A DNA stretch of 64,000 nt from Algoriphagus lutimaris (lineage in GTDB: Bacteria; Bacteroidota; Bacteroidia; Cytophagales; Cyclobacteriaceae): contig NZ_JAFIDJ010000001.1 of NCBI RefSeq assembly GCF_017051705.1, positions 186,001 to 250,000 on the forward strand, written 5' to 3'. Positions within the stretch are counted from its first letter, which is position 1. Every line of letters starts with the position of its first letter. This document shows positions 48,030-64,000 of the stretch, piece by piece. A program made the translations under genes and the position numbers. Below the pieces are notes generated by a model. The model did no database searches. It saw only the letters and a list, made by a program, of their open reading frames with translations, and was not told the DNA's origin.

Positions 48030-49382
48030 TTATCTGAAATTTAGGGTAAAGACTGTCTTTTCATTTGGGGTGGAAGTCACTTGTAAACTTCCCCTATGAA
48101 GGTTCATGATTTGCCTTGAAATCGCCAAACCAATTCCTGACCCTGTTTTTTTAGTGGTATAGAAAGGAACAAATATTCGTTCGAGTGCCTCTGGAATAAT
48201 TCCCGGGCCGTGATCTTCCACCCGTATCATTATTCCCATATCACCCTGTGATAAGGCAGACAGCCAAATGGTTCTTTCTTCTTGATTTTGTAATGACTCA
48301 TTGGCATTTTTTACGAGGTTGATCAAAATCATCGCGATTTGATCTGGATCACAATTGATTTCAAGGTCCTCAGGCATGATTTCTGTCACAATTTTAACAT
48401 CCGACACTTTCAGGTCCTCCTTCATTAAAATGAGGACATTTTCAAACAATGATTTAACAGAAATCAGCTCCTTTTTAGGAGTTGGTATATTGGTGTAATC
48501 CCTGTAGGCATTGACAAATGCCACCAAGCCTTTGCTTCTGTTGGCGATGGTTTCCAATCCTTCCTGTATGTCTTGATAGCCGTCTTTCTTGATCAAAAAC
48601 CCTTCTTTTTGCACGTAGGAGTCTTCTTCTAAAATAGTGCTCAATGAATCTACCAAACTTGAAATAGGGGTGATGGAATTCATGATTTCATGTCTCAACA
48701 CTTTGGTAAGGTTTTGCCATGCTTCCAATTCGTTGGATTGAAGTTCCGCATTGATGTTTTGTAATGACAGCAACGTCCAACTTTGGCCTCCCATTTTTAA
48801 AGAGGTGGACTGAATGATCAAGTGTAGGTTTGGATTAACCCGATAAGAGATTCGCTGACCAGGTTTCATTTCCATGACCTGCTCTAATAAAGAAGTAGAA
48901 AGTTTGCCTAAATCAGAAATATCCCGAAACTGAGGGATTTGTAATAAATGCTTTGCGGCATTGTTGATCACTCCGATTTTGCCTTCGGAATTGAAAGAGA
49001 TAATCCCCGAGTTGATATGCTGGATAATCACTTGAAGAAACAGCATTTGTTCCTCCTTTTCAGCCCTGGTTTGTTTAAAAACGTTCATGACTTCATTAAA
49101 TGCCATGTTAACTTCTCTAAAGGAACCTCCCATTTGGCTATCCGAAGTAAAGGAGCTGGAGAAATCAGTAAAACGAATGGAGTCTAGAAATCGGGCAAGC
49201 TTATGATTGATGGAGTTGACATAGTAAATCAGCTCGCCTATTTGGATCAAGGCTATCAGCCCCAAAATCCCTGGGGCTAGCCATAAATCTTGCCTATAGT
49301 AAAGCCATAAACCTAGGTATAGGCATAGAATAATCAGGAAAATCCTAAATCCTACGCCTATCGAAAACCGCTTATAAACCAT
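48030..49382 (-). CDS. Sensor histidine kinase (NtrB-like partner of the adjacent regulator)
   Basis: 450 residues. Two N-terminal transmembrane helices (about 8-50) have only a very short loop, so there is no large periplasmic sensor. A HAMP-like/linker region and a PAS-like domain (about 115-200, HINSGIISFNSEGKIGVINNAAKHLL) follow. The H-box is H231 in KVLRHEIMNSITPISSL; the ATPase domain has N-box LVKNANESL, G1 VEDHGPGI and G2 GSGIGLAISRQI. The gene overlaps its sigma-54 response regulator by 11 bp. It probably senses a membrane-derived signal. Confidence 0.9.
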   Translation of the reverse strand: MVYKRFSIGVGFRIFLIILCLYLGLWLYYRQDLWLAPGILGLIALIQIGELIYYVNSINHKLARFLDSIRFTDFSSSFTSDSQMGGSFREVNMAFNEVMNVFKQTRAEKEEQMLFLQVIIQHINSGIISFNSEGKIGVINNAAKHLLQIPQFRDISDLGKLSTSLLEQVMEMKPGQRISYRVNPNLHLIIQSTSLKMGGQSWTLLSLQNINAELQSNELEAWQNLTKVLRHEIMNSITPISSLVDSLSTILEEDSYVQKEGFLIKKDGYQDIQEGLETIANRSKGLVAFVNAYRDYTNIPTPKKELISVKSLFENVLILMKEDLKVSDVKIVTEIMPEDLEINCDPDQIAMILINLVKNANESLQNQEERTIWLSALSQGDMGIMIRVEDHGPGIIPEALERIFVPFYTTKKTGSGIGLAISRQIMNLHRGSLQVTSTPNEKTVFTLNFR

Positions 49383-50760
49383 ATTTTTCCAGTCTACGAT
49401 AAAGTGAGGAGCGAGTCAATCCTAATTCCTCAGCGGCTCTAGTGATATGTCCATTATGTTTCTGAAGGGCTTTACGAATCAAAATTCGTTCTACATCTTC
49501 AATATTTAAGTGCTCTAAACTCACTGACTCATCCTTGTTTTCCGGCTGCTGCATTTTTTGCAGGAATAGGTCTTCAGGCTGAAGCACATTATGATTACTC
49601 ATAATGACTGCCCTTTCAATGCTATGTTGAAGTTCCCGGATGTTTCCAGGCCAATGGTACTTCATCATCCGTTTGATCAAAGGTTCTGAAGCTTTTCTGA
49701 CATCCTTATTGTATTTCTTGGCATAAAAGGCAATAAAGTGATTGGCCAGCAACATGATGTCGTCATCTCGCTCCCTTAAAGGAGGAAGCTGGATTTCAAT
49801 TGTATTGATCCTGTATAATAAATCTTGACGGAAACTATTGTCATATACCATGTTGTGTATTGGCATATTAGTAGCCGAAATTAAACGAATGTTGACATCA
49901 ATGGCTCGATTCGCTCCCACACGGGTGACCTGTCTATTTTGTAATACCGCGAGTAATTTGGCTTGTAAAGGAAGGGGTAAATTTCCGATTTCATCCAAAA
50001 AGAGGGTGCCTTTATGTGCTTGTTCAAATCTTCCTGCTCTGTCTTCTTTGGCATCTGTAAAGGAGCCTTTTTTATGACCGAATAATTCCGATTCAAAGAG
50101 GGATTGAGTGATGGAGCCAAGATCTACTCCTACAAAAGCCTCTTTATTTCTCCTACTATGTCTATGAATAGCTCTGGCAATCAATTCTTTTCCGGTACCG
50201 TTTTCGCCTAAGATCAAAACATTTGCATCGGTAGAAGCTACTCGTTCAATGGTTTCATAGACTTTTTGCATGACCGCACTTTGACCGATAATTTCGCTGA
50301 ACTTGCGGTCCATGTCCGCCTGAAGTGTTTGCTTCTGGTCTTTCAGTAAATCTACTTCCAGTTTTTTCTGGCGTAATTTGAGCGCAGAATTAAGGGTGGC
50401 CAACAAGCGTTCATTTTCCCATGGCTTCAAGACAAAATCGGTGGCTCCCTCCTTGATTGCTCTTACAGCAAGGTTGACATCGCCATAGGCAGTTATCAAT
50501 ACCACCACAGCGGAAGGGTCTAATTCTAGAATTCGGTCAAGCCAATAAAAACCTTCCTGCCCGGAACTCACATCCTTGGTGAAGTTCATATCCAGCATGA
50601 TCACGTCATATTGCTCATTGTGAGTCAAAATAGGAAGTAGGTCTGGGTTAGTTTCAGTATCTACTTGCGCAAAATGTCTTTTTAGAAAAATCTTGGCAGC
50701 TTTTAGTAGGTCTTCATTGTCATCAATAATGAGAATTTTACCAATTTTTTGCTCACTCAT
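49372..50760 (-). CDS. Sigma-54-dependent response regulator (NtrC family)
   Basis: 462 residues. An N-terminal receiver has phospho-acceptor D57 (YDVIMLDMNF). The AAA+ domain carries Walker A GENGTGKE, the sigma-54 contact loop as GSFTDA (variant of GAFTGA) in ELFGHKKGSFTDAKEDRAG, and Walker B GTLFLDEIGNLPL. A Fis-type helix-turn-helix ends the protein (HNGHITRAAEELGLTRSSLYRRL). It activates sigma-54 promoters when phosphorylated. It is divergent from the export operon, and a palindrome plus a -24/-12 element lie between them. Confidence 0.95.
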   Translation of the reverse strand: MSEQKIGKILIIDDNEDLLKAAKIFLKRHFAQVDTETNPDLLPILTHNEQYDVIMLDMNFTKDVSSGQEGFYWLDRILELDPSAVVVLITAYGDVNLAVRAIKEGATDFVLKPWENERLLATLNSALKLRQKKLEVDLLKDQKQTLQADMDRKFSEIIGQSAVMQKVYETIERVASTDANVLILGENGTGKELIARAIHRHSRRNKEAFVGVDLGSITQSLFESELFGHKKGSFTDAKEDRAGRFEQAHKGTLFLDEIGNLPLPLQAKLLAVLQNRQVTRVGANRAIDVNIRLISATNMPIHNMVYDNSFRQDLLYRINTIEIQLPPLRERDDDIMLLANHFIAFYAKKYNKDVRKASEPLIKRMMKYHWPGNIRELQHSIERAVIMSNHNVLQPEDLFLQKMQQPENKDESVSLEHLNIEDVERILIRKALQKHNGHITRAAEELGLTRSSLYRRLEKYGL

Positions 50761-50958: not shown

Positions 50959-50988
50959 TTTTGTTCGCCTGCGAACAAAAATGTTCGG
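50959..50988. promoter_or_regulatory. Palindromic upstream activating site for the NtrC-type regulator (candidate)
   Basis: Arms TTTTGTTCGC / GCGAACAAAA separated by CT, a perfect 10+2+10 palindrome at 50959-50980, followed by a further half-site-like TGTTCGG at 50982-50988. It lies between the NtrC-type gene and the export operon, its centre about 80 bp upstream of the -24 element. A copy with 18 of 22 identical bases lies at 61998. Confidence 0.7.
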
Positions 50989-51049
50989 GAGATCCAAATT
51001 CAAAAAAGGTGAAACCTCCAATATAAGCCTGAGAACGCTATTTTTTTGA

Positions 51050-51067
51050 TGGCATACCATTTGGCAT
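51050..51067 (+). promoter_or_regulatory. Sigma-54-type -24/-12 element of the export operon (candidate)
   Basis: TGGCATACCATTTGGCAT resembles TGGCAC-N5-TTGCA. The GG and GC elements are one base further apart than ideal. It lies 33 bp before the start codon of the membrane fusion protein. Confidence 0.5.
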
Positions 51068-51100
51068 AAAGGGTATAGCCGAAAATGGCAGATACACACA

Positions 51101-52348
51101 ATGGACAGAAAAATACAAAAGAAGACCTGGACGCCCAGGAGGATTGCATGGATTGTTGGAGGAGCAGCATTGCTCTTCGGAATTATTTATCAAATAGGCT
51201 TTGCGGATCACCGTTCTACCATGAATGTAGAGCGAGATCGGTTAAGTATTGCTACGGTAAGTAAAGGAGAGTTTACAGATTATATTTTGGTCTCTGGCCA
51301 AATAGAACCTGCACAGACTTTTTTCCTAGATGCTGTAGAAGGTGGGATGGTTGCCGAAATTGTTAGGGAGTCCGGAGCCTTGGTAGATGTGGGTGATACA
51401 ATTTTGATTATGGCTAACTCCAATCTACAATTGGATGTTATGCAGCGTGAAACGATGTTGTATGAGCAAATCAATAACCTGCGACAAACTCGTCTCTTTT
51501 TAGATCAAAATGATTTGAGTCAACAAGGGCAATTGGCTGAAATTGATTACCAGATCAGTTTATTGGAGCCTCAATATAAACGATTCAAGGAGCTTCATGA
51601 GAAAAACCTGGTTTCAGACCGTGAGTTCGAGGAAGTCGCTGAGCAGTATGAATATAATTTGAAGCGTAAGGAGCTTACTTATGCATCTTATAAAAGTGAT
51701 TCTATCGCAAGAGCATATCAGCTAGCTCAACTTAGGCAGTCAGAAAGTAGAATGAATGCTTCTCTTAATGGAGTAGGTCGGATTTTGGATAATCTGGTAA
51801 TCAAGGCTCCAATTGCTGGACAGTTGGCCATGGAGCAGATTGAAGTAGGGCAAGCAATCAACTCGGGAGAGCGTTATGGGCAAATCGATGTCTTGGACGA
51901 GTTTAAAGTGAGAGTTCCGATCGATGAATTATACCTGCCAAGAATTGGGCAAGGGCTAAGAGGTAAATTTACGTTGAGTGGTGTAGACCATGAATTGGAG
52001 ATTATGAAAATCTATCCAACCATTACCAATGGCCGATTCGAAGTGGATATGAATTTTACAGGAGAAAGTCCACAAGGGATCAGACGTGGTCAAAGTGTAA
52101 GAATCAGGCTGGAGTTAGGTGACAGCGAACAAAGCTTATTGCTACCTACTGGAGGCTTCTTTAAAGATACCGGAGGAAACTGGGTATTTGTTTTGAACTC
52201 TGCTGGAAATGCTGAGAAAAGAAATATCCGTTTGGGAAGAAAGAATCCTGAGTATTATGAAGTTTTGGAAGGTTTAGTAGAGGGAGAAAGGGTGATTGTA
52301 TCTGGATATGAGAATTTCGGTGATAACGAAGTGCTGGAGCTGAAATAG
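51101..52348 (+). CDS. Membrane fusion protein (HlyD/MacA family) of an ABC exporter
   Basis: 415 residues. One N-terminal transmembrane helix (about 13-33), a biotinyl-lipoyl-like half (DYILVSGQIEPAQTFFLDAVEGGMVAEIV), a long alpha-hairpin (about 110-220, with RFKELHEKNLVSDREFEEVAEQYEYNLKRKELTY) and beta-barrel parts (NLVIKAPIAGQLAMEQIEVGQAINSGE). It bridges the inner membrane ABC transporter to an outer membrane channel; no TolC-like gene is present in the window. It is the first gene after the regulatory region divergent from the NtrC-type regulator. Confidence 0.92.
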   Translation: MDRKIQKKTWTPRRIAWIVGGAALLFGIIYQIGFADHRSTMNVERDRLSIATVSKGEFTDYILVSGQIEPAQTFFLDAVEGGMVAEIVRESGALVDVGDTILIMANSNLQLDVMQRETMLYEQINNLRQTRLFLDQNDLSQQGQLAEIDYQISLLEPQYKRFKELHEKNLVSDREFEEVAEQYEYNLKRKELTYASYKSDSIARAYQLAQLRQSESRMNASLNGVGRILDNLVIKAPIAGQLAMEQIEVGQAINSGERYGQIDVLDEFKVRVPIDELYLPRIGQGLRGKFTLSGVDHELEIMKIYPTITNGRFEVDMNFTGESPQGIRRGQSVRIRLELGDSEQSLLLPTGGFFKDTGGNWVFVLNSAGNAEKRNIRLGRKNPEYYEVLEGLVEGERVIVSGYENFGDNEVLELK

Positions 52349-52551
52349 AAATGTGAAGTTTGAAAAAAGAGATGAGAAGTGAGGAATAAGATGTCATGGA
52401 TATAATGTGACCCCATGCAACCAAAACCAGATTCTTGTCATCTAATAATTAGGATAGAAATAGTTAAATCAAAAAATAAAATAAATACTAAAATCACTGA
52501 TTGAGCCGAGTCAGATCAGCGACTTCGGACATCGGGCAATAACAACACCAT

Positions 52552-53250
52552 ATGGAAAACGTCATCAAAACCGTCAATCTTAGGAAAATGTATGCTACCG
52601 AAGAGGTAGAAACTACTGCTTTGGATAGTATCCAGATCGAAATTAAAAAAGGAGAATTTGTCGCTATCATGGGGCCATCCGGTTGTGGTAAATCCACCCT
52701 TTTAAATATTCTTGGTTTGTTGGATAATCCAGATGCCGGTGAATATTATTTCTTGGATCAGGAAGTTGCCAAGTTTTCTGAAAGACAACGCTCGTCCTTG
52801 AGAAAAGGGAATATCGGATTCGTGTTTCAGAGCTTTAATCTTATCGATGAACTGACAGTTTTTGAAAACGTAGAGCTACCTCTATTGTATTTGAAAATCC
52901 CTGCAGATGAGCGCAAAACAAGAGTGGAGGAAGTTTTGACAAGGATGAACATCATGCACCGTCGAAATCACTTCCCACAGCAGCTTTCCGGTGGTCAGCA
53001 GCAACGTGTTGCGATTGCCAGAGCCATTGTCGCAAAACCTTCTGTAATCCTTGCCGATGAGCCTACAGGTAATTTGGACTCAACCAATGGTGAAGAAGTA
53101 ATGCGCTTATTGGAAGAGTTAAATAATGAAGGAACTACCATTGTGATGGTAACTCACTCTCCTCATGATGCCAACTATGCCCACAGAACGATCAACTTAT
53201 TTGATGGTAAGGTGGTGACTGAAAATATTCGTGAGCAGTTTCACGTGTAA
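52552..53250 (+). CDS. MacB/LolD-type ABC transporter ATPase
   Basis: 232 residues. Walker A GPSGCGKST (41-49), signature LSGGQQQRVAIARA, Walker B VILADEPTGNLDS and the switch region VMVTHSPHDA are all present. The sequence GNIGFVFQSFNLIDELTVFENVELPL is typical of the MacB/LolD group. It powers FtsX-type permeases, of which three follow downstream. A 203-bp gap separates it from the membrane fusion protein gene; no promoter was recognised in it. Confidence 0.94.
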   Translation: MENVIKTVNLRKMYATEEVETTALDSIQIEIKKGEFVAIMGPSGCGKSTLLNILGLLDNPDAGEYYFLDQEVAKFSERQRSSLRKGNIGFVFQSFNLIDELTVFENVELPLLYLKIPADERKTRVEEVLTRMNIMHRRNHFPQQLSGGQQQRVAIARAIVAKPSVILADEPTGNLDSTNGEEVMRLLEELNNEGTTIVMVTHSPHDANYAHRTINLFDGKVVTENIREQFHV

Positions 53251-53268
53251 AAAGCTCGAAGCGCAATC

Positions 53269-53387
53269 CGTCACTGCGAGGAGGAATGACAAAGCAGTCT
53301 CGTTTTAAAGAAGTACTTATCCTGAAAAGGAGGGATTGATTTCTTATGGCGAGATTGCTTCTCCCGATTATCGGGATCGCAATGACG
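53269..53387. repeat. Long imperfect inverted repeat (REP/BIME-like)
   Basis: The arms begin CGTCACTGCGAGGAGGAATG and end, as reverse complement, CGTCATTGCGAT...AAGCAATCTCG. Outer and inner parts of the arms are conserved and the middle differs; the right arm also holds a small hairpin CCCGATTATCGGG at 53363-53375. The CGTCATTGCGA...AAGCAATCTCG motif is a widespread intergenic repeat in Bacteroidota. It lies between the ATPase gene and the first permease gene and may affect mRNA stability. Confidence 0.75.
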
Positions 53388-53418
53388 AAAAAGCACCTTA
53401 AACTAAACCAACTTCCCC

Positions 53419-55779
53419 ATGCTACGTCATCAAATATTATTGACCTTTAGAAGCTTCATGAAGTCCAAACATACCTTTGTGATCAATCTTCTTGGGTTGA
53501 CTGTAGGTTTGACTACTGTCATTTTGATTTTGCTTTGGGTGAAGGATGAGTTGAGTATCAATCGCTACCATTCCCGGCTAGATCAGATCGTGACGGTGAT
53601 GACTAATCATGATAATTCTACAGGGATTGTCACAATCAATTACACGCCTGCTGAAATGGCAGAAGCCATGAAGGCTGAACTTTCTCAGGTGGAAAAAGCT
53701 ACTGCCTTTTCTCCTTTTATTGAAGGGGTTTCCTTTGAACAAGGGGATACTAAAATGAAGGGGGATGGTTTTTTTGTGGACCAGGATTATTTCCAAATTT
53801 TTGATGTGGACTTCCTTGTCGGAAATCCAGATAAGGCTCTGGAAGATATTAATTCAGTAACCCTTTCAGAATCTCTGGCGACCAAGCTTTTTGGAAGCCC
53901 TCAACTGGCCTTAGGGAAATCATTGAAATGGCAGGTTTTTGATTTTACCAATGAGGTGGAGATTACTGGAGTCTATGAGGATTTTGGTAAGCTGGATGTG
54001 ACCAAGCCTGATTTTTTGTTGTCATTTCCCTACTTTAAGCAAATGCTAGGGGATGGAGCACATTGGGACAATTTCAATGCATCAACCAGTTTATTGTTAA
54101 AAGAGGGAACTGATATTGCCAGTTTTAATGGGCAAATCACCGATTTTATTAAAAATAAAGAAGCTGAATCCAATGTTTCGGTATTTGTTCAGCCATTTGG
54201 AGATGCTTATTTATATGGAAGATATGAAGATGGCAAAATTGCCGGAGGAAGGATTAGTTATGTGAAAATATTTTCTGCTATTGCCCTTTTTATCTTGCTT
54301 ATTGCCTGTATTAATTTCATGAATTTAAGTACCGCGAGATCCATGAGCAGGCTGAAGGAAATAGGAGTGAAAAAATCCATGGGAGCCAGTAGGGGAGGTT
54401 TGTTCTCTCAATTTATTACTGAATCTTTAATGCTTACGCTTTTTGCTTTAATTCTGGCAGTCTTGGTATCTTTTCTATTGCAGCCATTTTTTAATCAAGT
54501 TACCTCTAAGTTACTTGTACTAACATTTCAGCCAGATGTAGTACTGATTCTATTTAGTATTTGGTTGATTACAGGGTTATTAGCAGGGATTTATCCAGCT
54601 ATTTACCTTTCCAGGTTTAAGCCTATAGAAGTGATGAAGTCCAATCTAAAAGGAAGTTTTGGAGAACTTTTGGCAAGAAAAGGATTAGTGGTTTTTCAGT
54701 TTTCTATCTCCCTTTTACTCATTATTGGTATTTCGGTTTTGAGTAAGCAAATGAACTATATCCAAAATCAAAATCTGGGTTACAATCAAGCGCATTTATT
54801 GGAACTGAATGCTTCTGGAATTGCTCCAAATCAATTGGATACCTACCTCGAAGAAACTAGGAAAGTCCTAGGGGTAAGTAATGCTTCCAGTTTATCGCAC
54901 CCTTTGGTAGGGCTTGCTAGTTCCACGATCGGATTGACCTGGGATGGAAAAGATCCTGAGGAACAAGTGAAGTTTGAAAATATAACGGTAAACATGGGCT
55001 TGATCGAAACCATGGGATTTGAAATGGCGGAAGGCCGTGCTTTCTCTCCAGAATTTGGGGATGAGGATCAAAAAATCATTTTAAATGAAGCTGCCGTGAG
55101 AACCATCGGTTTTCAAGATCCTGTAGGTCAAATCGTTAATCTATGGGGTGAAGACAAAGAGGTAATTGGTGTGGTGAAAGATTTCCATTTTGAGTCTTTA
55201 AAAGAAACTGTTAAACCTGCATTTCTGAAATACGATCCAGCATTTGCTCAAAAGGTGATGGTGAGAATTGAGTCCAATGATCAACAAGCCAGTATAGCAG
55301 GGATATCCGAGGTCTATGAAAAATTCACGGGACAACCTTTGAACTACTCTTTTATGGATGAGGATTATCAGTCCTTGTATGCTTCAGAGCAAAGAGCTTC
55401 AAACTTAGCCAAATATTTCGGTACCACAGCCATTTTCCTTTCCTGCCTTGGCCTCTTTGGATTGGCTGCCTTCACTGCCGAAAAGCGTAAAAAGGAAATC
55501 GGAGTGCGGAAAGTTATGGGAGCTTCCTTGATGAGCGTGCTGACTTTGGTTTCCAAAGACTTTGTTGCTTTGATTATGGTTTCGATCATCATCGCAGTTC
55601 CGATTGCTTGGTATTTCGCTAATAATTGGCTGCAAAGCTATGCTTATCAGACGGATTTGAGTTGGTGGATTTTCGCAGGGTCTGGCGTACTATTGATTTT
55701 GATTTCTCTTATCACTGTAGGATACCAAGCCTTTAAAGCAGCTTCTGCCAATCCGGTCAATTCCCTTCGTAGTGAGTAA
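53419..55779 (+). CDS. FtsX/MacB-type ABC transporter permease (1)
   Basis: 786 residues, the long form typical of Bacteroidota. Two FtsX-type membrane modules are present: an N-terminal helix (about 20-42) with a MacB-PCD periplasmic domain and three helices (about 285-425, YVKIFSAIALFILLIACINFMNLSTARSMSRLKEIGVKKSMGAS), then a second unit with a helix near 430-450, another periplasmic domain, and three helices at the C-terminus (LSCLGLFGLAAFTAEKRKKEIGVRKVMGAS). It is an exporter or mechanotransmission protein; the substrate is unknown. It pairs with the ATPase upstream. Confidence 0.92.
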   Translation: MLRHQILLTFRSFMKSKHTFVINLLGLTVGLTTVILILLWVKDELSINRYHSRLDQIVTVMTNHDNSTGIVTINYTPAEMAEAMKAELSQVEKATAFSPFIEGVSFEQGDTKMKGDGFFVDQDYFQIFDVDFLVGNPDKALEDINSVTLSESLATKLFGSPQLALGKSLKWQVFDFTNEVEITGVYEDFGKLDVTKPDFLLSFPYFKQMLGDGAHWDNFNASTSLLLKEGTDIASFNGQITDFIKNKEAESNVSVFVQPFGDAYLYGRYEDGKIAGGRISYVKIFSAIALFILLIACINFMNLSTARSMSRLKEIGVKKSMGASRGGLFSQFITESLMLTLFALILAVLVSFLLQPFFNQVTSKLLVLTFQPDVVLILFSIWLITGLLAGIYPAIYLSRFKPIEVMKSNLKGSFGELLARKGLVVFQFSISLLLIIGISVLSKQMNYIQNQNLGYNQAHLLELNASGIAPNQLDTYLEETRKVLGVSNASSLSHPLVGLASSTIGLTWDGKDPEEQVKFENITVNMGLIETMGFEMAEGRAFSPEFGDEDQKIILNEAAVRTIGFQDPVGQIVNLWGEDKEVIGVVKDFHFESLKETVKPAFLKYDPAFAQKVMVRIESNDQQASIAGISEVYEKFTGQPLNYSFMDEDYQSLYASEQRASNLAKYFGTTAIFLSCLGLFGLAAFTAEKRKKEIGVRKVMGASLMSVLTLVSKDFVALIMVSIIIAVPIAWYFANNWLQSYAYQTDLSWWIFAGSGVLLILISLITVGYQAFKAASANPVNSLRSE

Positions 55780-55788
55780 GGGGATTTA

Positions 55789-55822
55789 TGATGTAGGATG
55801 TAAGATATAAGATGTAAGAGAT
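55789..55822. repeat. Degenerate tandem purine-rich repeat
   Basis: Four imperfect copies of a GATGTAAGA-like unit (TGATGTAGGATGTAAGATAT, then AAGATGTAAGAGAT), directly after the permease stop. The same wording, TGATGTAGGAT plus ATAAGAT, recurs at 58563 after the next permease. Confidence 0.6.
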
Positions 55823-56092
55823 ATGAATTAAGATTCTTCATTTTAGGATGAGGAAAATTGGACAGAGAAATCTTGATTCAAAACCTCGTGTTTGATGGAA
55901 GGATTCTTTTTTCTTTCTCAACCAAATGGATTTGTACATGAGAAAAAATATCAGGAATCTGAAATACACCTTTTAAAAATATAAAATCCTTAAAGAGCAG
56001 TACTTGATGCAACCTTCTGGATCAAGTATGCATCAAATGAAGATAAGGAACCTTTTCTTGAATTTTAGGAACCCACTTAAACCAGCACAGCT
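55823..56092. other. Intergenic region with nested inverted repeats
   Basis: It contains TACTTGAT / ATCAAGTA (56001-56008 and 56021-56028), overlapping with TTGATGC / GCATCAA (56004-56010 and 56030-56036), about 57 bp before the next permease gene. A TTTCTCA / TGAGAAA pair lies near 55913-55945. No copy of the palindrome found at 50959 and 61998 and no clear sigma-54 element was seen here. Confidence 0.45.
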
Positions 56093-58546
56093 ATGTTTGA
56101 AAACTACTTCAAAATCGCCATTAGGAACTTAAAAAAGCATAAGTTCTACACCTTTATCAATATCCTTGGTTTATCCGTAGGGGTGGCAGTCTGTATGATT
56201 ATCTCACTTTTTGTCATCAATGAACTCTCATACGACAAGCATTTCAAAGATGCGAACCAGATTTACAGAATTCATTCGGAAATTATTTTTGGTGGAAATC
56301 ATTGGAATATGACTCAAGCTCCGGCCCCTATGGCAGAGGCACTTCCTGCTGAGTTTCCCGAGGTTGAATATGCGGTTAATTTTAGACAGCGTGGTTCCTA
56401 TCTGGTCAAAAAAGTAGATCAAAACATCAAAGAAAATAATGTAATCTGGGCCAGCAAGGATTTTTTTAATGTCTTCGGGATGCCACTTTTGGAAGGAAAT
56501 CAGGAAGGTGTTCTAGCTGAGCCTAGCACCATGGCTATTAGCAAAAGTATTGCTGAGAAGTATTTTCCTGGAGAAAGCGCCTTAGGAAAATCTTTGATTT
56601 TGGATAATGAATACGATTTCCGGATCACTGGAGTCTATGAGGATATTCCCCAAAATAGCCACTTCCATTTCGATTTTTTACTTTCTATGGAAGGCTTGGA
56701 TGAAGCAAAAACCACCTCTTGGCTAAGCAATAATTTCCAGACCTATCTGAAACTAAGGGAAGGGTCTGATCCAGAGGATCTGAATTTGAAGATGAAATCA
56801 CTGATCAAAAAGAATGTCGAGCCTGAATTAGGTAAAATATTTGGAGAAGGGGCAACAATGGATGCCATGCTTGCTGATGGTGGTAAAATAGAATACGTGC
56901 TGCAACCGCTGCTTGATATCCACTTGAAAAGTGATTTGATGGGGGAATTTGAACCGAATTTCAACATTACTTATGTCTATCTTTTTGTAGCGATAGCGTT
57001 ATTCATCTTGGTCATTGCTTGTATCAATTTCATGAATTTGTCCACGGCACGATCTTCCAACCGTGCCAAAGAAGTAGGGATTCGAAAAGTAATGGGTTCT
57101 TACAGGTCTCATTTGATACGACAGTTCTTGATGGAGTCTATTTTGCTGAGTGTAATTTCTTTCTTAATTGCGATTCCAATTGTTGCCTTTCTCTTGCCAG
57201 TTTTCAATGATTTGGCAGGGAGAACCTTAGGTATTCCATTTTCACAATTGACGTTTTACATCATTTTGATGGTGGGCGCCATTGGTACAGGTCTTCTGGC
57301 TGGAACCTATCCATCATTTTTCCTGTCCGGATTTAAACCCGTGAGCATTTTAAAAGGAAAGGTGGCTTCCGGAATGAAAAGCGGGATGATACGAAGCTCA
57401 TTAGTGGTATTCCAATTTTCGATTTCCATCATTCTGATCATCGCAACCATCGCGGTATTCAACCAGCTGAATTACATCCAAAACAAGAAGATTGGCTTTA
57501 ACAAGGATCAAATCATCACAATCGATGACATTTATGCGCTAGGGGATCAGGCAGAAGCTTTCAAGCGGGAGATTTTAGCAAATAGCATGATGGAATCCGG
57601 AACGATCACTGGATTCTTGCCAGTAGCAGGCACTTGGAGATCTGATACACCTTGGTGGGCGGAAGGAAAAGATCCAAAGCAAACAGAAAATCTCGTCAGC
57701 CTTCAAAACTGGCGTGTGGACTACGATTACGTGAATACCATGGGGATGGAAATTGTAGAAGGAAGAGATTTTTCCGTGGATTTCCCATCTGACTCAAGTG
57801 CAGTCATCTTAAACGAATCGGCGGTGAGGCAATTCGACTTTACTGGTGATCCAATCGGACAGAAAATCTACACTTTGGCCGGGGACAATGAAACGATGAA
57901 TCTAGACGAATTAGAAAGCAAAACGGTAGTAGGGGTCGTGAAGAACTTTCACTTTGAATCGTTAAAGGAGAATATTGGATCTTTGATGATTTTCCTCAGC
58001 AAAAGACCTCAAGGGATTGCCTCTTTCCGTTTCAATGCCAATGATACTGATCAGGTGATTGAATTTGTGGAAGCAAAGTGGAATGAATTTGCTCCAGGGC
58101 AACCTTTTACTTATTCCTTTTTGGATGATCGCTTTGGGAAAATGTATGCAGCAGAAACCCGACTTGGAAAGGTCTTCGGCATCTTTGCAGGGTTTGCAAT
58201 TGTAATTGCTTGCTTGGGTTTATTTGCCTTGACGGCATTTACGGCCGAGCAGCGAACCAAAGAAATTGGTATCCGAAAAGTATTGGGTTCGAGCATTGGA
58301 AGCATCATCGTTTTATTATCAAAAGAGTTTGCCAAGCTGGTGTTGATCGCCTTCTTGATTGCTTCGCCTGTGGCATGGTATGCCATGAAAAAATGGCTGG
58401 AAGATTATCAATTCAAGCAGGATCTAGGCTGGCAGGTATTCTTGGGAGCAGGACTGTTTGCAATTGTGATTGCCTTGTTGACTACCAGTTACCAATCCAT
58501 CAAAGCTGCCACCGCAAATCCGGTAAATTCCTTGAAAAGCGAATAA
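56093..58546 (+). CDS. FtsX/MacB-type ABC transporter permease (2)
   Basis: 817 residues with the same two-module layout as permease 1: N-terminal helix (FYTFINILGLSVGVAVCMIISLF), MacB-PCD region, central helices starting YVYLFVAIALFILVIACINFMNLSTARSSNRAKEVGIRKVMGS, and C-terminal helices with CLGLFALTAFTAEQRTKEIGIRKVLGSS. It is a divergent paralogue, not an identical copy. It probably uses the ATPase at 52552. It ends before a small repeat region and a terminator. Confidence 0.92.
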   Translation: MFENYFKIAIRNLKKHKFYTFINILGLSVGVAVCMIISLFVINELSYDKHFKDANQIYRIHSEIIFGGNHWNMTQAPAPMAEALPAEFPEVEYAVNFRQRGSYLVKKVDQNIKENNVIWASKDFFNVFGMPLLEGNQEGVLAEPSTMAISKSIAEKYFPGESALGKSLILDNEYDFRITGVYEDIPQNSHFHFDFLLSMEGLDEAKTTSWLSNNFQTYLKLREGSDPEDLNLKMKSLIKKNVEPELGKIFGEGATMDAMLADGGKIEYVLQPLLDIHLKSDLMGEFEPNFNITYVYLFVAIALFILVIACINFMNLSTARSSNRAKEVGIRKVMGSYRSHLIRQFLMESILLSVISFLIAIPIVAFLLPVFNDLAGRTLGIPFSQLTFYIILMVGAIGTGLLAGTYPSFFLSGFKPVSILKGKVASGMKSGMIRSSLVVFQFSISIILIIATIAVFNQLNYIQNKKIGFNKDQIITIDDIYALGDQAEAFKREILANSMMESGTITGFLPVAGTWRSDTPWWAEGKDPKQTENLVSLQNWRVDYDYVNTMGMEIVEGRDFSVDFPSDSSAVILNESAVRQFDFTGDPIGQKIYTLAGDNETMNLDELESKTVVGVVKNFHFESLKENIGSLMIFLSKRPQGIASFRFNANDTDQVIEFVEAKWNEFAPGQPFTYSFLDDRFGKMYAAETRLGKVFGIFAGFAIVIACLGLFALTAFTAEQRTKEIGIRKVLGSSIGSIIVLLSKEFAKLVLIAFLIASPVAWYAMKKWLEDYQFKQDLGWQVFLGAGLFAIVIALLTTSYQSIKAATANPVNSLKSE

Positions 58547-58552
58547 ATTGAT

Positions 58553-58583
58553 TTAAGATTTTTGATGTAGGATATAAGATTTT
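58553..58583. repeat. Degenerate purine-rich repeat, second copy
   Basis: GATTTAAGATTTTTGATGTA followed by GGATATAAGAT, directly after permease 2, resembling the repeat at 55789 after permease 1. Confidence 0.5.
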
Positions 58584-58589
58584 GTTTGT

Positions 58590-58648
58590 CCCAGTTCGTG
58601 TCTTCTCGAAGTGGCAACCGATAGGCTCATGGAGACTCGAGCCGGGGC
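58590..58648. repeat. Imperfect inverted repeat (REP-like)
   Basis: Left arm CCCAGTTCGTGTCTTC, right arm GGAGACTCGAGCCGGGG; the reverse complement of the right arm matches the left with a few mismatches. It is more GC-rich than its surroundings and lies between permease 2 and its terminator. Confidence 0.55.
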
Positions 58649-58662
58649 AAGTAGAGTAAATC

Positions 58663-58699
58663 AACCTTTGAGGCTTTAAAAACCTCGAAGGTTTTTTTG
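58663..58699 (+). terminator. Terminator after permease 2
   Basis: Stem AACCTTTGAGG / CCTCGAAGGTT (one mismatch) with a 9-base loop and a T-run. Confidence 0.85.
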
Positions 58700-58752
58700 T
58701 TTTTTACTTTTTAGTATGTCTTCCCACAATTATCAAGAATAGCTATTCCTGA

Positions 58753-58800
58753 GAAAATGCTGAAAGATCAACTTTTGATTATTCATGGAAGCCAGTGTTG
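58753..58800. repeat. Diverged 48-bp repeat, copy 1
   Basis: 39 of 48 bases match 59753-59800, including an identical 21-base core (58770-58790). Both copies could be read as a peptide EKML..LLIIHG, but here a stop follows within a few codons. It may be the remnant of a decayed gene or mobile element. Confidence 0.55.
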
Positions 58801-58839
58801 AATGCCGTAATATTGTAATATGATTCATTATAATTTGAA

Positions 58840-59247
58840 TCACTTTTCCTTTAACGTTAATTGTTCAATTATTCCAGCTTCAAATAGAACTAATTCCTTA
58901 TCAGTTCCTGCACCAAGTAATGCCGAAGTTGAAAACACATTTTGATTGAAATTAAAAACTATTGTAACGAAAGCTTCACTTGGTTCGAATTTGAAATTTA
59001 CTATGTAAAGTTTATCTCCAATTTTCCTTGACCTATAGTCACACGTTCCTGAGGCTCCTTTACTAGGACCATCTATCCATTCAAATTTAAACTGACCATC
59101 TTCAAGTTCAGCATGAACGGCACTTCCATTTTGATAAAAATATTTCATAGAAGTTCCATCCAATAAATGCTCAACCTGACTTTCTTGTGAAATTGCTTGC
59201 AATGAAAATCCCAAAAGGATTAGTAAGAATGTTAAAGAGTGTTTCAT
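58840..59247 (-). CDS. Secreted MoaF-like beta-barrel protein
   Basis: 135 residues. Signal peptide about 1-20 (ends AISQ). The mature part is a small beta-barrel pattern: GTSMKYFYQNGSAVHAELEDGQFKFEWIDGPSKGASGTCDYRSRKIGDKLYIVNFKF..AFVTIVFNFNQNVFSTSALL. This resembles the MoaF/phenolic acid decarboxylase-like calycin fold. I cannot assign a ligand or reaction. It is isolated, on the strand opposite to the ABC genes. Confidence 0.55.
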   Translation of the reverse strand: MKHSLTFLLILLGFSLQAISQESQVEHLLDGTSMKYFYQNGSAVHAELEDGQFKFEWIDGPSKGASGTCDYRSRKIGDKLYIVNFKFEPSEAFVTIVFNFNQNVFSTSALLGAGTDKELVLFEAGIIEQLTLKEK

Positions 59248-59875
59248 AATATGCGTATTAAGTTTTATAAAATTATTGGTTTCTAATGTTCGTTAAAGTA
59301 GATGGTTTACAACTTCTTTATAGTACACATTTTATGCACTTATCTCCTTAAAATCGGGTGGATATTTTCACCTTTTCGACTTTTTATCCCTCAAAAAATT
59401 ATTGTCAATCTCCTCAAAAAAGCTACTAAAATTCCTAGATGGTTTTAGTTATGCAAATGGGTTAAGAAGCGGGGATAAGAAAAGTCAGAAGTCTAAAGCC
59501 TGTGCTAGGAATTACTCTGGATTGAAAGGTTTGATAGAGGTGGATTATTGGTAATGAATGAAATCTTTCTTAAAAAAATATTAGCCTTGGGCCGGAAGTA
59601 GGGCAGGCAATCTACACCTAGTCCCAGCCATGTTTTATCTTCACCCAGCTGGGGTGGACAAGCCACCCGCAAGGCAGCGCTTTGTCCATTCTTGACTTCT
59701 TACAATCAGTCCAAAAAGCAGGCAATCAATTCAAAAACAGCCTAAACGAAGAAAAAATGCTAGAAAATGAACTTTTGATTATTCATGGAATAAATTGTTG
59801 TGCTTTCGGCTTGTTTGTCACTTGTAGTATAAATATTCTTTCAGGTTTGGAAATGATTAGAAGTTTTAAGTTTTT
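59248..59875. other. 628-bp intergenic region with a repeat and patches of higher GC
   Basis: No believable gene. Around 59600-59690 the sequence is more GC-rich than elsewhere and can fold (GGGTGG / CCACCC near 59650). A plus-strand frame from a TTG at 59682 covers 100 codons, includes the second copy of the 48-bp repeat, and then runs antisense into the next gene; its first 30 codons look protein-like (SILDFLQSVQKAGNQFKNSL), so it may be the tail of a lost gene. Confidence 0.4.
59753..59800. repeat. Diverged 48-bp repeat, copy 2
   Basis: Partner of 58753-58800, 1000 bp further on in the same orientation. The identical core is at 59770-59790. Confidence 0.55.
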
Positions 59876-60601
59876 TCAAAAAAAACTGTCTCCAATAAAT
59901 CGAACTATTGATTGCCATTCGTCTGTATTACGACCATGCATACTAGTGATACTTATACCCAATCCGACTGCTATAATAATATAGGGTATAGGGTTTGCCT
60001 TCTTTCTTATATCATTTAATAAAAGGAGTAATACTATGCCGAGACCAAAATATTCAGAGATAAAAAAGGCATAAAAATTAATTGACTCTCCAAAAATAAT
60101 TATCAATAGTCTAGAAGAAATAGCTCCAAAAAAAGTGAATACTGTGCCAATCATATAACGCTTGTGTTTAAACACCTCTTTTTTATGGATAATAGCAAGC
60201 GAGTAGAAAAGCAAAAAATTGAATGGGGTAATAATGTTTAATGACTGCCAAGCAGCGACTTCTATAAACGGCATTTCTCCCAACATTTTGAGATAATTTA
60301 GCTTTGTTATTAACACCATATAAATAAACACTAATGGTGCTGTGAAATAGGATATTTTACCAATAAGTCTATGCTCCTTGTATTTTTTTTTGATGATAAG
60401 ATAAGGTTGAATAATCAGCATCACCACCCAAGACACCATTAATGCCCCATGTATGTGATGTGTCCAACTAAATTCATGAAATTGTGGAAAATATTGCAAA
60501 TAGAAAGGGTGAAAGGCTACTTGCATTAAAATAAATAATAGTACCATCCCTATAAAAAAAGTTTGGGTTGTAGCGTCTTTTGTTTTGTTTTCCAGTATCA
60601 T
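59876..60601 (-). CDS. Multi-pass membrane protein, DUF2306-like
   Basis: 241 residues with about seven transmembrane helices. The segment WTHHIHGALMVSWVVMLIIQPYLIIKKKYKEHRLIGKISY has the H..HG...Q...HR..G pattern found in DUF2306-like and other haem-binding-type membrane proteins. The function is unknown. It is the last gene of a three-gene minus-strand group with an NTF2-like secreted protein and a DUF2306 protein, of which it may be a distant paralogue. Confidence 0.65.
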   Translation of the reverse strand: MILENKTKDATTQTFFIGMVLLFILMQVAFHPFYLQYFPQFHEFSWTHHIHGALMVSWVVMLIIQPYLIIKKKYKEHRLIGKISYFTAPLVFIYMVLITKLNYLKMLGEMPFIEVAAWQSLNIITPFNFLLFYSLAIIHKKEVFKHKRYMIGTVFTFFGAISSRLLIIIFGESINFYAFFISEYFGLGIVLLLLLNDIRKKANPIPYIIIAVGLGISITSMHGRNTDEWQSIVRFIGDSFF

Positions 60602-60655
60602 TTATTTTTAATTTTTTTATGCTAGCCAAAACGACCCAGGCTATGAATCGTGGTT

Positions 60656-61135
60656 TTATTTGTTAAACCACTTACAGGTATAGCCAGTCCAAGCCCAAAG
60701 GATATTCACAATCTTCCATTCTCCATTCATTTTGGCCAGATGGATGTAGTCCTCAAATTCAAACTTATTGGTGGTCGCCTTTACCGTAGCAATGCCATTG
60801 GAGATATCATAAATATGCACTTCGGATTTTAAGAGTTCGTTGGGATCTACTCCTGCTGTGTAGAATTGGGTGTAGTCAAAATCTTTGGTATAGCCAATCA
60901 AACTGGCTGCTGTCATATTGGTTGGACTCTCGATCCCTTCCCCGTTTTTATTCACGGTTCTTTTTGCCAAATCGGGATGCATGGCTTTTTCCATCCTCAC
61001 AGGATCGTTGTTTTCCATGCCTTCCAAATAATTGAGTACAGTTTCTTGGATTTGTAGCCGATCATCTTGCGCTTGTGCAAATCCGATAGAACCACTCATA
61101 AGGATGATTGCGAAAAGTACGTTTAGTGTTTTCAT
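60656..61135 (-). CDS. Secreted NTF2-like (lumazine-binding-type) protein
   Basis: 159 residues from the ATG at 61135. The open frame reaches 61168, but the signal peptide starts at 61135 (MKTLNVLFAIILMSGSIGFA, cut near QAQ). The mature part has the cone-shaped NTF2/SnoaL-like pattern: IQETVLNYLEGMENNDPVRMEKAMHPDLAKRTVN, SEVHIYDISNGIATVKATTNKFEFEDYIHLAKMNGEWKIVNILWAW. The fold binds small molecules; the function is unknown. It lies 29 bp after the DUF2306 gene and 54 bp before the other membrane gene. Confidence 0.75.
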   Translation of the reverse strand: MKTLNVLFAIILMSGSIGFAQAQDDRLQIQETVLNYLEGMENNDPVRMEKAMHPDLAKRTVNKNGEGIESPTNMTAASLIGYTKDFDYTQFYTAGVDPNELLKSEVHIYDISNGIATVKATTNKFEFEDYIHLAKMNGEWKIVNILWAWTGYTCKWFNK

Positions 61136-61164
61136 TTTTTGTTTATCCAGGTTTAAAAATATGT

Positions 61165-61812
61165 TCAATTGGAGGAAAGAGTTTTTCGATTCAGTTTTTT
61201 ATAGTTCAGGATCATCTCAGTAAACAAGAGTGGAATAGCCCAGGAAATCCAGATCAACGTAGGCCCATCGATCTCAAGGTTTTCTATAAATTCCAATTCA
61301 TTCAAAAAGCGAAACGTGACAAATGCAAAAGTCACAACATAGCTTTTGATCATCCATTCCCGGTGGAGTTCTGTGTTTTTTCTCAGAATAGATACATAAG
61401 CAAAAGCCACAGTGACAAACCAGGCTAACGCTAGACCTTGCAAGGAAATGGCCCAGTTGATATTTATTTTTAAACCTGAAGTCCAAGCCAAATAAGTAGA
61501 GGCAATCGTAGCTAGGACAATAGCTGCAATGTAGATTTTACCTAGGGCTCTATGGATTTTATAGTTTGCTTTTCGGAATGATTCCCAGAATTGAAATGGC
61601 CCTATCAGTAATGCGATTATTCCACCAGATATATGGCTGACCAAAGAGAATTTAAAATCCTGCCATCTTCCTAATATTTCTGGATCAAAGCTGTAATAGG
61701 GCAGAGCAGTAAATAAAATGAATTTTCCGGCCAGCAACGTTAATACAGTTACAGCTAAAAACATAAAAATAAACCTGGGTTGTGTCCACTGGGATTGGTG
61801 TGTTGCTTTCAT
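61165..61812 (-). CDS. DUF2306 family membrane protein
   Basis: 215 residues from the ATG at 61812; an earlier start at 61899 would add 29 residues of unrelated look. About six or seven transmembrane helices. DUF2306 signature: FSLVSHISGGIIALLIGPFQFWESFR...YKIHRALGKIY (conserved His residues in the membrane) and ELHREWMIKSYVVTFAFVTFR. The function is unknown. It is the first gene of the minus-strand trio that separates permease 3 from the rest of the ABC cluster. Confidence 0.8.
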   Translation of the reverse strand: MKATHQSQWTQPRFIFMFLAVTVLTLLAGKFILFTALPYYSFDPEILGRWQDFKFSLVSHISGGIIALLIGPFQFWESFRKANYKIHRALGKIYIAAIVLATIASTYLAWTSGLKININWAISLQGLALAWFVTVAFAYVSILRKNTELHREWMIKSYVVTFAFVTFRFLNELEFIENLEIDGPTLIWISWAIPLLFTEMILNYKKLNRKTLSSN

Positions 61813-61997
61813 GACATTTTTGAATTTATCTAATAAAAATAAGATTTTTTTTAGAATAGTAATGGCCTTCTCGGAATTTAAAATCGTGTACCGATTCAAT
61901 GTTTTAAATTGATTATCAGTTAATTGCTTTTGCTGGTTATAAGAATTAAAATTTGATTTTATTAGCTATTCAAAGAGTAAAATCAATGCTTTGGAAT

Positions 61998-62039
61998 TTT
62001 TGTCCGATTGCGACCAAAAACACCTATTAGCGGACAAAT
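61998..62039. promoter_or_regulatory. Palindromic upstream activating site, second copy (candidate)
   Basis: TTTTGTCCGA-TT-GCGACCAAAA at 61998-62019 matches the perfect palindrome at 50959 in 18 of 22 positions; a further half-site CGGACAAAT lies at 62031-62039. Its centre is about 82 bp upstream of the -24 element at 62091, nearly the same distance as at the first site. Confidence 0.7.
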
Positions 62040-62090
62040 GAGTTTAGGGTAAATGGCTTTTTAACCAGTAATTAGGGCGTTTTATTCTAC

Positions 62091-62106
62091 TGGCACTTTC
62101 TATGCA
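62091..62106 (+). promoter_or_regulatory. Sigma-54 -24/-12 promoter of permease 3
   Basis: TGGCACTTTCTATGCA matches TGGCAC-N5-TTGCA with correct spacing and one mismatch (A for the first T of the -12 box). It lies 95 bp upstream of the permease 3 start codon. Confidence 0.72.
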
Positions 62107-62201: not shown

Positions 62202-64000
62202 ATGTTTAAAAACTACTTTAAAATTGCTTTAAGAGGTTTTGCCAAGCATAAGCTTACTTTTTTCATCAACCTCTTTGGTCTTTCTCTTGGCCTTTGGGCC
62301 GCTATCCTAATAGGGCTATGGGTTAACTCTGAGTTGACCATCAACAAAGAAATTCCCGAAGTGGGTCGAGTGTATCAGATGATGGAACATCAGTCTTATG
62401 GATCAGATGTTTTTACCACGAACTCAACCCCTGGAGTATTGGCAGAAAGTATGAAAGAAAGCTTGGCAGAAGTGGAACTCGCCTCTACTTATACCTGGAT
62501 GGAAAATTTACTCTTTGTACAAAAGGATCAGCGCATTAAACTTGAAGGGTTGTTTGCTATGCCGGATTTTTTAAAAATCTATGATTACGGGGTCATCGAA
62601 GGTGATCTGAACAGCATGTTGACGGAAAACAACCATGTGATCTTGTCTGAAAGTGGTGCGATCTCGCTTTTTGGCAGAACAGATGTAGTAGGAGAGGATG
62701 TGGAGATCAAAGGGGGAACTGAAACACAAAACTTTATTGTACAAGGAGTAGTGAAGGATTTTCCTGCCAGTTCCACTATTAAGTTTGATTTTTTGCTTCC
62801 CTATTCCTGGTTTTTTGCAGAAAACGACTGGTTAGAAGACTGGGGGAACAATGGTCCTCGTACAATCATCCGCCTTCGGGAAGGAGTGGATGGAGATGCC
62901 TTTTCTGCAAGTGTAGAGAATTTTATTAAAGATCGAAATAAAGAGTCCAACGTTCGCCTTTTTGCCTACCCATTAGGAGATTTATACCTGCATGGTCAGT
63001 GGAAAGATGGACAACCAGTAGAAGGCAGAATCAAAAATGTGAAGCTTTTTGCCATGATCGGTTTATTCGTTTTGATCATTGCCTGTATCAATTTTATGAA
63101 CCTGAGTACGGCCAAATCACAAAAAAGAGCCAAGGAAGTGGGAGTAAGGAAAGTAGCTGGCGCCAACAAACAGTCTTTGGTGTATCAGTTTCTGAGTGAA
63201 TCTTTGCTAATTACTTTCTTTTCCGGAATTATTGCCGTGGTTTTGGTACAGGCTTCCCTGCCGATTTTCAATGATCTGACAGGCAAAGTCATATCCGTAC
63301 CTTATGGATCCTTTTATTTCTGGTTGCAGCTATTGATGATCATACTTTTCACTGGGATCGTGGCAGGCAGCTATCCGGCATTTTACCTTTCTGCCACCAA
63401 AGTAGTTTCTGTCTTTCGTTCTTTCACCAAATCTGGAAAAGGAGTGGTTATGGCCCGAAAAGGTTTGGTTTTGTTTCAGTTTATTCTTGCTACGATTTTG
63501 ATTGTTTCCACCTTAGTGGTGTATCAGCAAATCAATTACGCGATGAACCAGGATTTGGGTTATTCCAAAGACCAGCTGATTCAGGTTCCATTAGAAGGTA
63601 AGCTCAAGGAAAGCTTCGATGTATTTAAAACCGAATTGGAGAAAAATGAAAATATTGAGTCTGTGACTCGTTCATCCTTTGGCTTCCTTGGCAGAAACAA
63701 CAATACAGGTGGTGTTTCCTGGGAAGGAAAAGATCCGGAAAATGCAGCGCTATTTGAAGTTATCCGAGTGGATTATGATTTCTTGAAAACAGCAGGATTG
63801 GAATTGGTGCAGGGAAGAGGATTTGACCGAATGAATGGGTCGGATTCCACTTCGGGAGCTATTTTGAATCAGACGGCTTACGAATTGATGCAAAAGGATC
63901 ATGAAGGTTCTGAGTTTTTTAGGTTATGGGATGAGGAGCGTGCAATTACTGGAATTGTGAAGGATTTTCACTTCGAAAGTTTCCGTCAAAATGTGGCTCC
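62202..64000 (+). CDS. FtsX/MacB-type ABC transporter permease (3), 3' end outside window
   Basis: The open frame runs from the ATG at 62202 to the window edge (599 codons). It starts MFKNYFKIALRGFAKHKLTF, like permease 2 (MFENYFKIAIRNLKKHKFYT), and has the family central block LFVLIIACINFMNLSTAKSQKRAKEVGVRKVAGA, GIVAGSYPAFYLSA and, near the edge, AITGIVKDFHFESFRQ. About 200 residues with the last helices are missing. It has its own sigma-54 promoter and activator site matching those of the export operon, so it should be co-regulated despite the intervening minus-strand genes. Confidence 0.92.
   Translation, partial: MFKNYFKIALRGFAKHKLTFFINLFGLSLGLWAAILIGLWVNSELTINKEIPEVGRVYQMMEHQSYGSDVFTTNSTPGVLAESMKESLAEVELASTYTWMENLLFVQKDQRIKLEGLFAMPDFLKIYDYGVIEGDLNSMLTENNHVILSESGAISLFGRTDVVGEDVEIKGGTETQNFIVQGVVKDFPASSTIKFDFLLPYSWFFAENDWLEDWGNNGPRTIIRLREGVDGDAFSASVENFIKDRNKESNVRLFAYPLGDLYLHGQWKDGQPVEGRIKNVKLFAMIGLFVLIIACINFMNLSTAKSQKRAKEVGVRKVAGANKQSLVYQFLSESLLITFFSGIIAVVLVQASLPIFNDLTGKVISVPYGSFYFWLQLLMIILFTGIVAGSYPAFYLSATKVVSVFRSFTKSGKGVVMARKGLVLFQFILATILIVSTLVVYQQINYAMNQDLGYSKDQLIQVPLEGKLKESFDVFKTELEKNENIESVTRSSFGFLGRNNNTGGVSWEGKDPENAALFEVIRVDYDFLKTAGLELVQGRGFDRMNGSDSTSGAILNQTAYELMQKDHEGSEFFRLWDEERAITGIVKDFHFESFRQNVA

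Follow-up and report, generated by a model that had tools for sequence, protein, structure and literature searches.

In a 64,000-nucleotide stretch of Algoriphagus lutimaris DNA (bases 186001-250000 of contig 1, C1, in a genome of 4.7 Mb; hereafter the window), a sensor histidine kinase and an NtrC-type response regulator are encoded divergently from a periplasmic adaptor, an ATP-binding cassette (ABC) ATPase, and a series of large duplicated permeases. The subject of this report is the palindromic site that lies between the two gene sets and the regulon that it appears to define. A preliminary description, drawn from the letters of the window, had placed a perfect palindrome between the regulator and adaptor genes, a copy with 18 of 22 identical bases at 61998, a sigma-54-type element behind each (51050 and 62091), and a kinase/NtrC-type pair at 48030-50760. 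All of these features are present, with about 80-82 bp from the palindrome centre to TGGCA. The same description had pictured control at two ends of an export cluster; both of those promoters exist, but they turn out to belong to a set of about ten that precede the 14 permeases of a 60-kb island. Taken together, gene content, site placement, and conservation make it very probable that the dedicated kinase/NtrC-type pair drives this multi-permease ABC export island through RpoN.

The features on which the argument depends are listed below, with lengths in amino acids (aa); here and elsewhere, positions given without a contig name are window coordinates.

48030..49382, minus strand: sensor histidine kinase, 450 aa (HATPase_c 77.2 bits; two membrane helices)
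49372..50760, minus strand: NtrC-type response regulator, 462 aa (receiver, sigma-54 AAA+, and Fis-type helix-turn-helix, HTH; loop GSFTDA)
50959..50980, no strand: perfect palindrome TTTTGTTCGC-CT-GCGAACAAAA; its core is dyad 1 of promoter A (GTTCG-N4-CGAAC, 50963-50976)
50983..50996, plus strand: operator dyad 2 of promoter A, 20 bp past dyad 1; only the left half GTTCG (50983-50987) is retained, read by eye against dyad 2 of relatives
51050..51066, plus strand: sigma-54-type promoter A, TGGCAT-N5-TTTGGCA-like; dyad 1 ends 73 bp upstream
51101..52348, plus strand: periplasmic adaptor (membrane fusion protein), 415 aa (domain and family profile matches)
52552..53250, plus strand: ABC ATPase of the MacB/LolD/DarD kind, 232 aa (domain and family profile matches)
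53419..55779, plus strand: duplicated MacB_PCD/FtsX permease 1, 786 aa (profile matches)
56093..58546, plus strand: duplicated MacB_PCD/FtsX permease 2, 817 aa (profile matches)
61998..62019, no strand: second palindrome copy TTTTGTCCGATTGCGACCAAAA, 18/22 bases identical; its core is dyad 1 of promoter B (GTCCG-N4-CGACC, 62002-62015)
62022..62035, plus strand: operator dyad 2 of promoter B; only the right half CGGAC (62031-62035) is retained, read by eye
62091..62105, plus strand: sigma-54-type promoter B, TGGCACTTTCTATGC, with TGGCAC; dyad 1 ends 75 bp upstream
62202..64000, plus strand: duplicated permease 3, 787 aa, cut by the window end (its open reading frame, ORF, ends at contig position 250565; profile matches)

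Operator and promoters of the permease island

The window holds just two matches to the 22-bp palindrome at three or fewer mismatches, and 100 dinucleotide shuffles hold none. The palindrome that had been taken for the site is there, yet the operator proper consists of two tandem dyads of the form GTYCG-N4-CGRAC, separated by six bases and spaced 20 bp from centre to centre. In this species dyad 2 often retains one half only, and it is fuller in distant family members (e.g., loci L069, L078, and L083). Promoter B (TGGCACTTTCTATGC) shows the usual GG-N10-GC arrangement; promoter A is atypical in its -12 part, where TGGCATACCATTTGGCA reads as GG-N10-GG or GG-N11-GC.

Ten promoters with an operator (A-J) can be read at unit starts of the island, seven of them by scan and three by eye. 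A scan of 100 kb returned composites of dyad and promoter at A, D, E, F, H, I, and J, against none in the reversed sequence at two or fewer dyad mismatches and one at three or fewer. Promoters B, C, and G were added by eye, the scan having missed them because their -12 letters fall outside its pattern. Together the ten promoters precede all 14 island permeases, and those within one unit would be co-transcribed.

The strict forms of the site are concentrated in the island, and the scatter over the genome that would have spoken against the original proposal is not what we find. The exact dyad occurs at three genomic places, all of them island promoters (A, I, and J), and the palindrome at three or fewer mismatches occurs at five, four of which lie in the island (control pattern, 0). 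The fifth palindrome (C1:1113749) was dismissed as a chance match; it sits inside a 1372-aa synthetase-like ORF, with no TGGCAY within the 701 bases around it. No dyad at the regulon spacing precedes TGGCAY at the three long permeases outside the island, as judged on fetched pieces in which the ORF of the C30 permease is incomplete. At C1:1249500-1254500 (L088), a duplicated permease outside the island adjoins a different sensor-regulator pair, and a one-mismatch dyad stands 49 bp before TGGCAT. Since this spacing is unlike that of the island, L088 was not counted.

The gene array extends well beyond the window, the end of which falls inside permease 3, to about contig position 298788 (~299 kb of contig 1). 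Fourteen long MacB_PCD/FtsX permeases are encoded at C1:239419-296746, out of 17 such ORFs of 785-871 aa in the genome, and with two ATPases, one adaptor, and one outer-membrane efflux protein they form the ~60-kb island. The second ATPase and the outer-membrane efflux protein are at C1:296778-298788, the latter scoring 149.5 bits for OEP at C1:297421-298788, and the adaptor scores 132.2 bits for RND_mfp against a cut-off of 94.9. The island thus has the full gene set of a tripartite MacAB-TolC-like system, from adaptor and ATPase through MacB_PCD/FtsX permease to outer-membrane efflux protein, and by gene content it is predicted to be such an exporter. Also within the array are two head-GIN (DUF2807) proteins and one more small exported protein that matches no Pfam family, as well as interspersed Mla-type genes and a TPR histidine kinase with a LuxR-type regulator. 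The small exported proteins open regulon units at C1:253243, 259611, and 271038.

Stable hairpins (z < -1.5) followed by T runs, in the manner of intrinsic terminators, lie between operator and promoter at five of the ten island promoters (B, C, F, I, and J), and these may perhaps shield the promoters from read-through of the preceding unit. The hairpin was also tried as a defining part of the cassette and rejected, as z < -1.5 is reached in only 2/20 and 1/14 orthologous adaptor promoters; we take it as local insulation of co-oriented units. Promoter I (C1:282993-283330) combines an exact dyad and TGGCAT with a short ORF in which, by eye, the start of one permease is joined to the end of another. 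This ORF looks like a decayed array member whose promoter has been left in place. Elsewhere in the window, 44047-46698 encodes an 883-aa exported protein that by eye has a sugar-dehydrogenase-like part, a PKD-like domain, and a haem motif, CKGCH.

Conservation of the operator in relatives

By regulator sequence, the nearest named relative is Algoriphagus formosus (91%), in a search that may omit records of the same genome or very near ones. At E 1e-120 or better, the regulator is matched in 185 of 196 family genomes, from which 40 loci were fetched as the family sample. The adaptor and ATPase are divergent from the regulator in 36 of the 40, a figure that includes L074, with its adaptor 1.45 kb off, and L078, with a displaced kinase; the exceptions are L071, L077, and L079, which begin with permeases, and L086, which lacks an adaptor. 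The operator is found 68-78 bp before TGGCAY in 36/40 family intergenic regions, compared with a mean of 0.1 and a maximum of 2 over 60 shuffles. A phylum-wide draw of 247 genomes gave regulator matches at E 1e-140 or better in 49, of which 42 are outside the family, and 20 of these 42 Bacteroidota loci were fetched by choice. Divergent adaptor and ATPase genes are present in all 20, 18 also show permeases within the fetched stretch (L109 and L114 do not), and the operator appears at the 68-78 bp setting in 10 (shuffle mean 0.05, maximum 1). Conservation upstream of orthologues, which the preliminary description had put forward as a check, is therefore observed both within the family and beyond it.

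A further set of 80 named loci includes 37 with a divergent adaptor within 2.5 kb. The operator is present in 27 of these 37, among them metagenome-assembled genomes (MAGs) labelled Zixibacteria, Acidobacteria, and Deltaproteobacteria. In 15 loci it lies at 66-80 bp, a placement that the shuffles never gave, and in the other 12 it lies at 58-66 bp, against 0.07 in shuffles. Eleven of these 12 carry two mismatches, and all are in records labelled Bacteroidota. The spacing itself is narrowly distributed: among the 51 loci (61 examined) that have a dyad with one mismatch or fewer 20-200 bp upstream, dyad 1 ends 71-75 bp before TGGCAY in 40. MAGs with the operator include records labelled Zixibacteriota (L136), Deltaproteobacteria (L142), Acidobacteria (L148), Aminicenantes (L182), Neomarinimicrobiota (L191), Rhodospirillaceae (L187), and Latescibacterota (L173, whose contig ends before any adaptor). 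Canonical-like -12 boxes resembling TTGCA occur in several distant loci, including several MAG loci with the operator, and the -24 box is conserved. From these comparisons we infer that the island promoters are sigma-54 promoters with a lineage-specific -12 box.

Across 60 fetched loci (1.17 Mb, both strands), 58 dyad-plus-promoter composites were counted, and the reversed and complement controls gave 0. Thirty-six of them stand before an adaptor, 13 before a permease, 4 before an ATPase, 2 before a GIN protein, and 1 (L118) before the regulator; for the remaining 2 the next gene is unassigned. In L054 (counted as ATPase) and L063 (as unassigned), an adaptor was missed by the ORF filter, and tblastn puts one ~50 bp past the promoter. 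Overall, 56/58 composites precede module genes, a count that shows placement at module unit starts and not absence elsewhere. The composite in L118, which is outside the family, is antisense and directed at the regulator gene itself, an orientation that suggests autoregulation.

The candidate activator and competing explanations

The regulator scores above cut-off for Response_reg (63.1 bits), Sigma54_activat (228.3 bits), and HTH_8 (60 bits) in NtrC-type order, and the P-loop and receiver Asp57 are invariant among 21 aligned sequences. The genome has one rpoN match. The site is conserved, is island-restricted in its strict forms, and keeps a nearly fixed distance from the -24 element, all of which supports the original suggestion that the shared site is that of this regulator, with binding and sigma-54 dependence as predictions.

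A number of observations weigh against this assignment. Taken by itself, the sigma-54 pattern turns up no more often in the window than chance predicts (5 found vs 8.06 expected), so the promoter claim rests on position and conservation, and the -12 box in this family is TTGGCA- or TGGAA-like, not TTGCA. With two mismatches each, the first dyads of operators D, E, and F are weak. The exact dyad is not enriched in number, with three places in the genome and nine for the reversed control pattern, so that placement and not number is what is special about it; the relaxed pattern is likewise not above its reversed control over the genome (8 vs 10 places, 6 of the 8 being in the island and one of those within a permease gene), and for this reason the strict forms and placement alone were used. 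The operator is missed in four family loci (L071, L079, L084, which has dyads at 63 and 83 bp instead, and L086) and in 10/20 other phylum loci, and 10/37 named loci have it at neither spacing. Presence of the regulator was what selected the 60 loci behind the composite count, and module genes would therefore be the commonest neighbours of any site in them. The contact loop of the regulator is GSFTDA, not GAFTGA, and G[AS]FTD(A) is found in 40/40 orthologues. The genome also encodes a paralogous regulator at C1:2235736-2237115 with a very similar recognition helix.

The deviant loop is not without precedent. At this position, three of the other full-AAA+ activators of the genome have S, G, and G, the paralogue has D, and one is unmatched by the motif. 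The G266D variant of NorR, which carries the same change, is reported to retain open-complex formation and to escape repression by the sensory domain (PMC2941729), so sigma-54 activation by our regulator remains plausible. By analogy, the GSFTDA loop would lower formal membership of the NtrC class and leave the working model in place.

The paralogue raises the question of which protein acts at the operator. The sites and sigma-54 promoters could be real and the activator could be, wholly or partly, the paralogue, or the operator could be shared by both regulators. The paralogue is 61% identical, also has a GAFTDA loop, and has a near-identical HTH end that may recognise the same half-sites. 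Its 18-kb neighbourhood, however, contains no permease and no comparable composite, whereas the operator keeps its place beside the divergent regulator in 36/40 family loci, and we regard a role for the paralogue as unlikely. A different view would make the palindromes the sites of a repressor or nucleoid-type protein, have another sigma factor transcribe the island, and treat TGGCAY as coincidental. The atypical -12 boxes, the departure of the loop from GAFTGA, and the chance-level frequency of the sigma-54 pattern in the window would all fit such a view, but the dyad-to-TGGCAY spacing is nearly fixed in many genomes, TTGGCA...TTGCA-type promoters stand at the same place in distant loci, and NorR with D at the loop position still supports open-complex formation (PMC2941729), which leaves this explanation quite improbable. 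It is scarcely credible that the palindromes arose as chance repeats or belong to terminator hairpins and have no regulatory role. Half of the island's own promoters do have stable hairpins between operator and promoter, but the hairpins are separate from the dyads, the window shuffles gave no palindrome, the 36 operators observed in the family compare with 0.1 in shuffles, and the genome has no exact dyad other than the three at island promoters. A chance origin is already contradicted by the retention of the operator in front of orthologous genes.

Known systems and a working model

For the permeases, adaptor, and ATPase, the best-scoring named families are ADOP (NCBIfam TIGR03434) and the darobactin exporter DarBCD (NF038008, NF038010, and NF038007), and yet the island proteins all score under the curated cut-offs. 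Against ADOP the window permeases reach 317.9, 294.6, and 152.1 bits (the last is cut by the window end), where the curated value is 622.3; the darobactin profiles give 284.7/375 bits for DarD, 197.7/450 for DarC, and at best 172.4/700 for DarB.

Sigma-54 has been argued to control the bacterial exterior in general (PMC3162934), in a paper whose main text does not contain the terms permease, MacB, FtsX, or Bacteroid. Sigma-54 promoters before COG0577/FtsX-like permeases were predicted in Bacteroidia, Opitutia, and Gammaproteobacteria and called the first evidence of such a link (PMC12316311, 2025). That in silico prediction resembles the island in having sigma-54 promoters before this permease family; it concerns enrichment of permease genes as a COG and, in the portion of the paper at hand, names no activator, operator, kinase, or array-wide regulon. 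It is the sole close report that we found in the open-licence literature, outside of which most subscription papers lie, and no earlier description of this regulator, operator, or array regulon was found there.

The Bce modules (BceAB-BceRS) share with the island a two-helix kinase without an extracytoplasmic domain, beside an FtsX-family ABC transporter whose expression its regulator presumably induces. BceB is a member of the FtsX family. In Bce modules, kinases of this form are reported to need the FtsX-family ABC transporter for activation (PMC10314905 and PMC8534201). In contrast to Bce modules, the island has an NtrC-type regulator in place of the BceR class, sigma-54 promoters, many permeases per regulator, and duplicated MacB-like permeases with an adaptor and an outer-membrane protein in place of a single BceB-type permease. 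Because of its duplicated permeases and NtrC-type regulator, the island falls outside the Bce modules and at most resembles them in how it works. In the kinase, few residues separate the two membrane helices, and there is no extracytoplasmic domain (19 aligned sequences; hydropathy of 40, a set from which the L078 kinase is absent and in which the segments merge in some rows and an extra, weak internal segment is seen in L066 and in L086). The lack of such a domain makes membrane-level or transporter-state sensing, as in Bce modules, the likeliest mode for this kinase, an analogy that we hold only tentatively.

Tandem upstream sites are typical of NtrC-family enhancer-binding proteins. The island has in common with them the domain order and the tandem dyads upstream of a -24/-12 promoter; it differs from the norm in its G[AS]FTDA loop and in an operator-promoter spacing that is almost constant over many promoters and genomes.

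In the working model, the kinase would phosphorylate the NtrC-type regulator, which would bind the tandem dyads (tGTYCG-N4-CGRACa, six bases, second dyad) with centres roughly 105 and 85 bp upstream of the start site. Assembled there, the regulator would open RpoN-RNA polymerase complexes at TTGGCA(C/T)-N5-TTG(C/G/A)A promoters. One operator-promoter cassette, repeated at about ten unit starts, would in this way co-induce the 14 duplicated permeases, one adaptor, two ATPases, the outer-membrane efflux protein, and the three small exported proteins. Phosphorylation, regulator binding, RpoN dependence, co-transcription within units, and the sensing mode are what we infer from the arrangement of genes and sites. 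As read from these data, the conserved multi-promoter sigma-54-type regulon is what would make the 60-kb permease array one unit.

A broader and rather doubtful extension would see in this regulon an ancient, multi-phylum Gram-negative counterpart of the Bce modules, spanning Bacteroidota and MAG loci labelled Zixibacteria, Acidobacteria, Latescibacterota, Deltaproteobacteria, and Rhodospirillaceae. Here the intramembrane kinase would read the state of an FtsX-type permease and, via sigma-54, induce duplicated "orphan" permeases, a set open to expansion and served by a single adaptor-ATPase pair. If true, each duplicated operator-promoter-permease cassette would connect a further pump to one alarm, and it would become understandable that the permeases are mostly without ATPases of their own. 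A new principle would be at hand only if transporter sensing and a shared ATPase were confirmed.

Sets of duplicated permeases that lack ATPases of their own are known. By tying 14 permeases to one adaptor-ATPase operon, a shared operator provides regulatory evidence that they act as one system, and the analysis names an activator, a site, a promoter form, and a kinase as candidates for the control of the array. With an enhancer-promoter distance that hardly varies and a naturally occurring GAFTDA loop, this is also a natural system for the study of sigma-54 activator tuning, and an operator conserved in several phyla would permit regulon prediction in many genomes.

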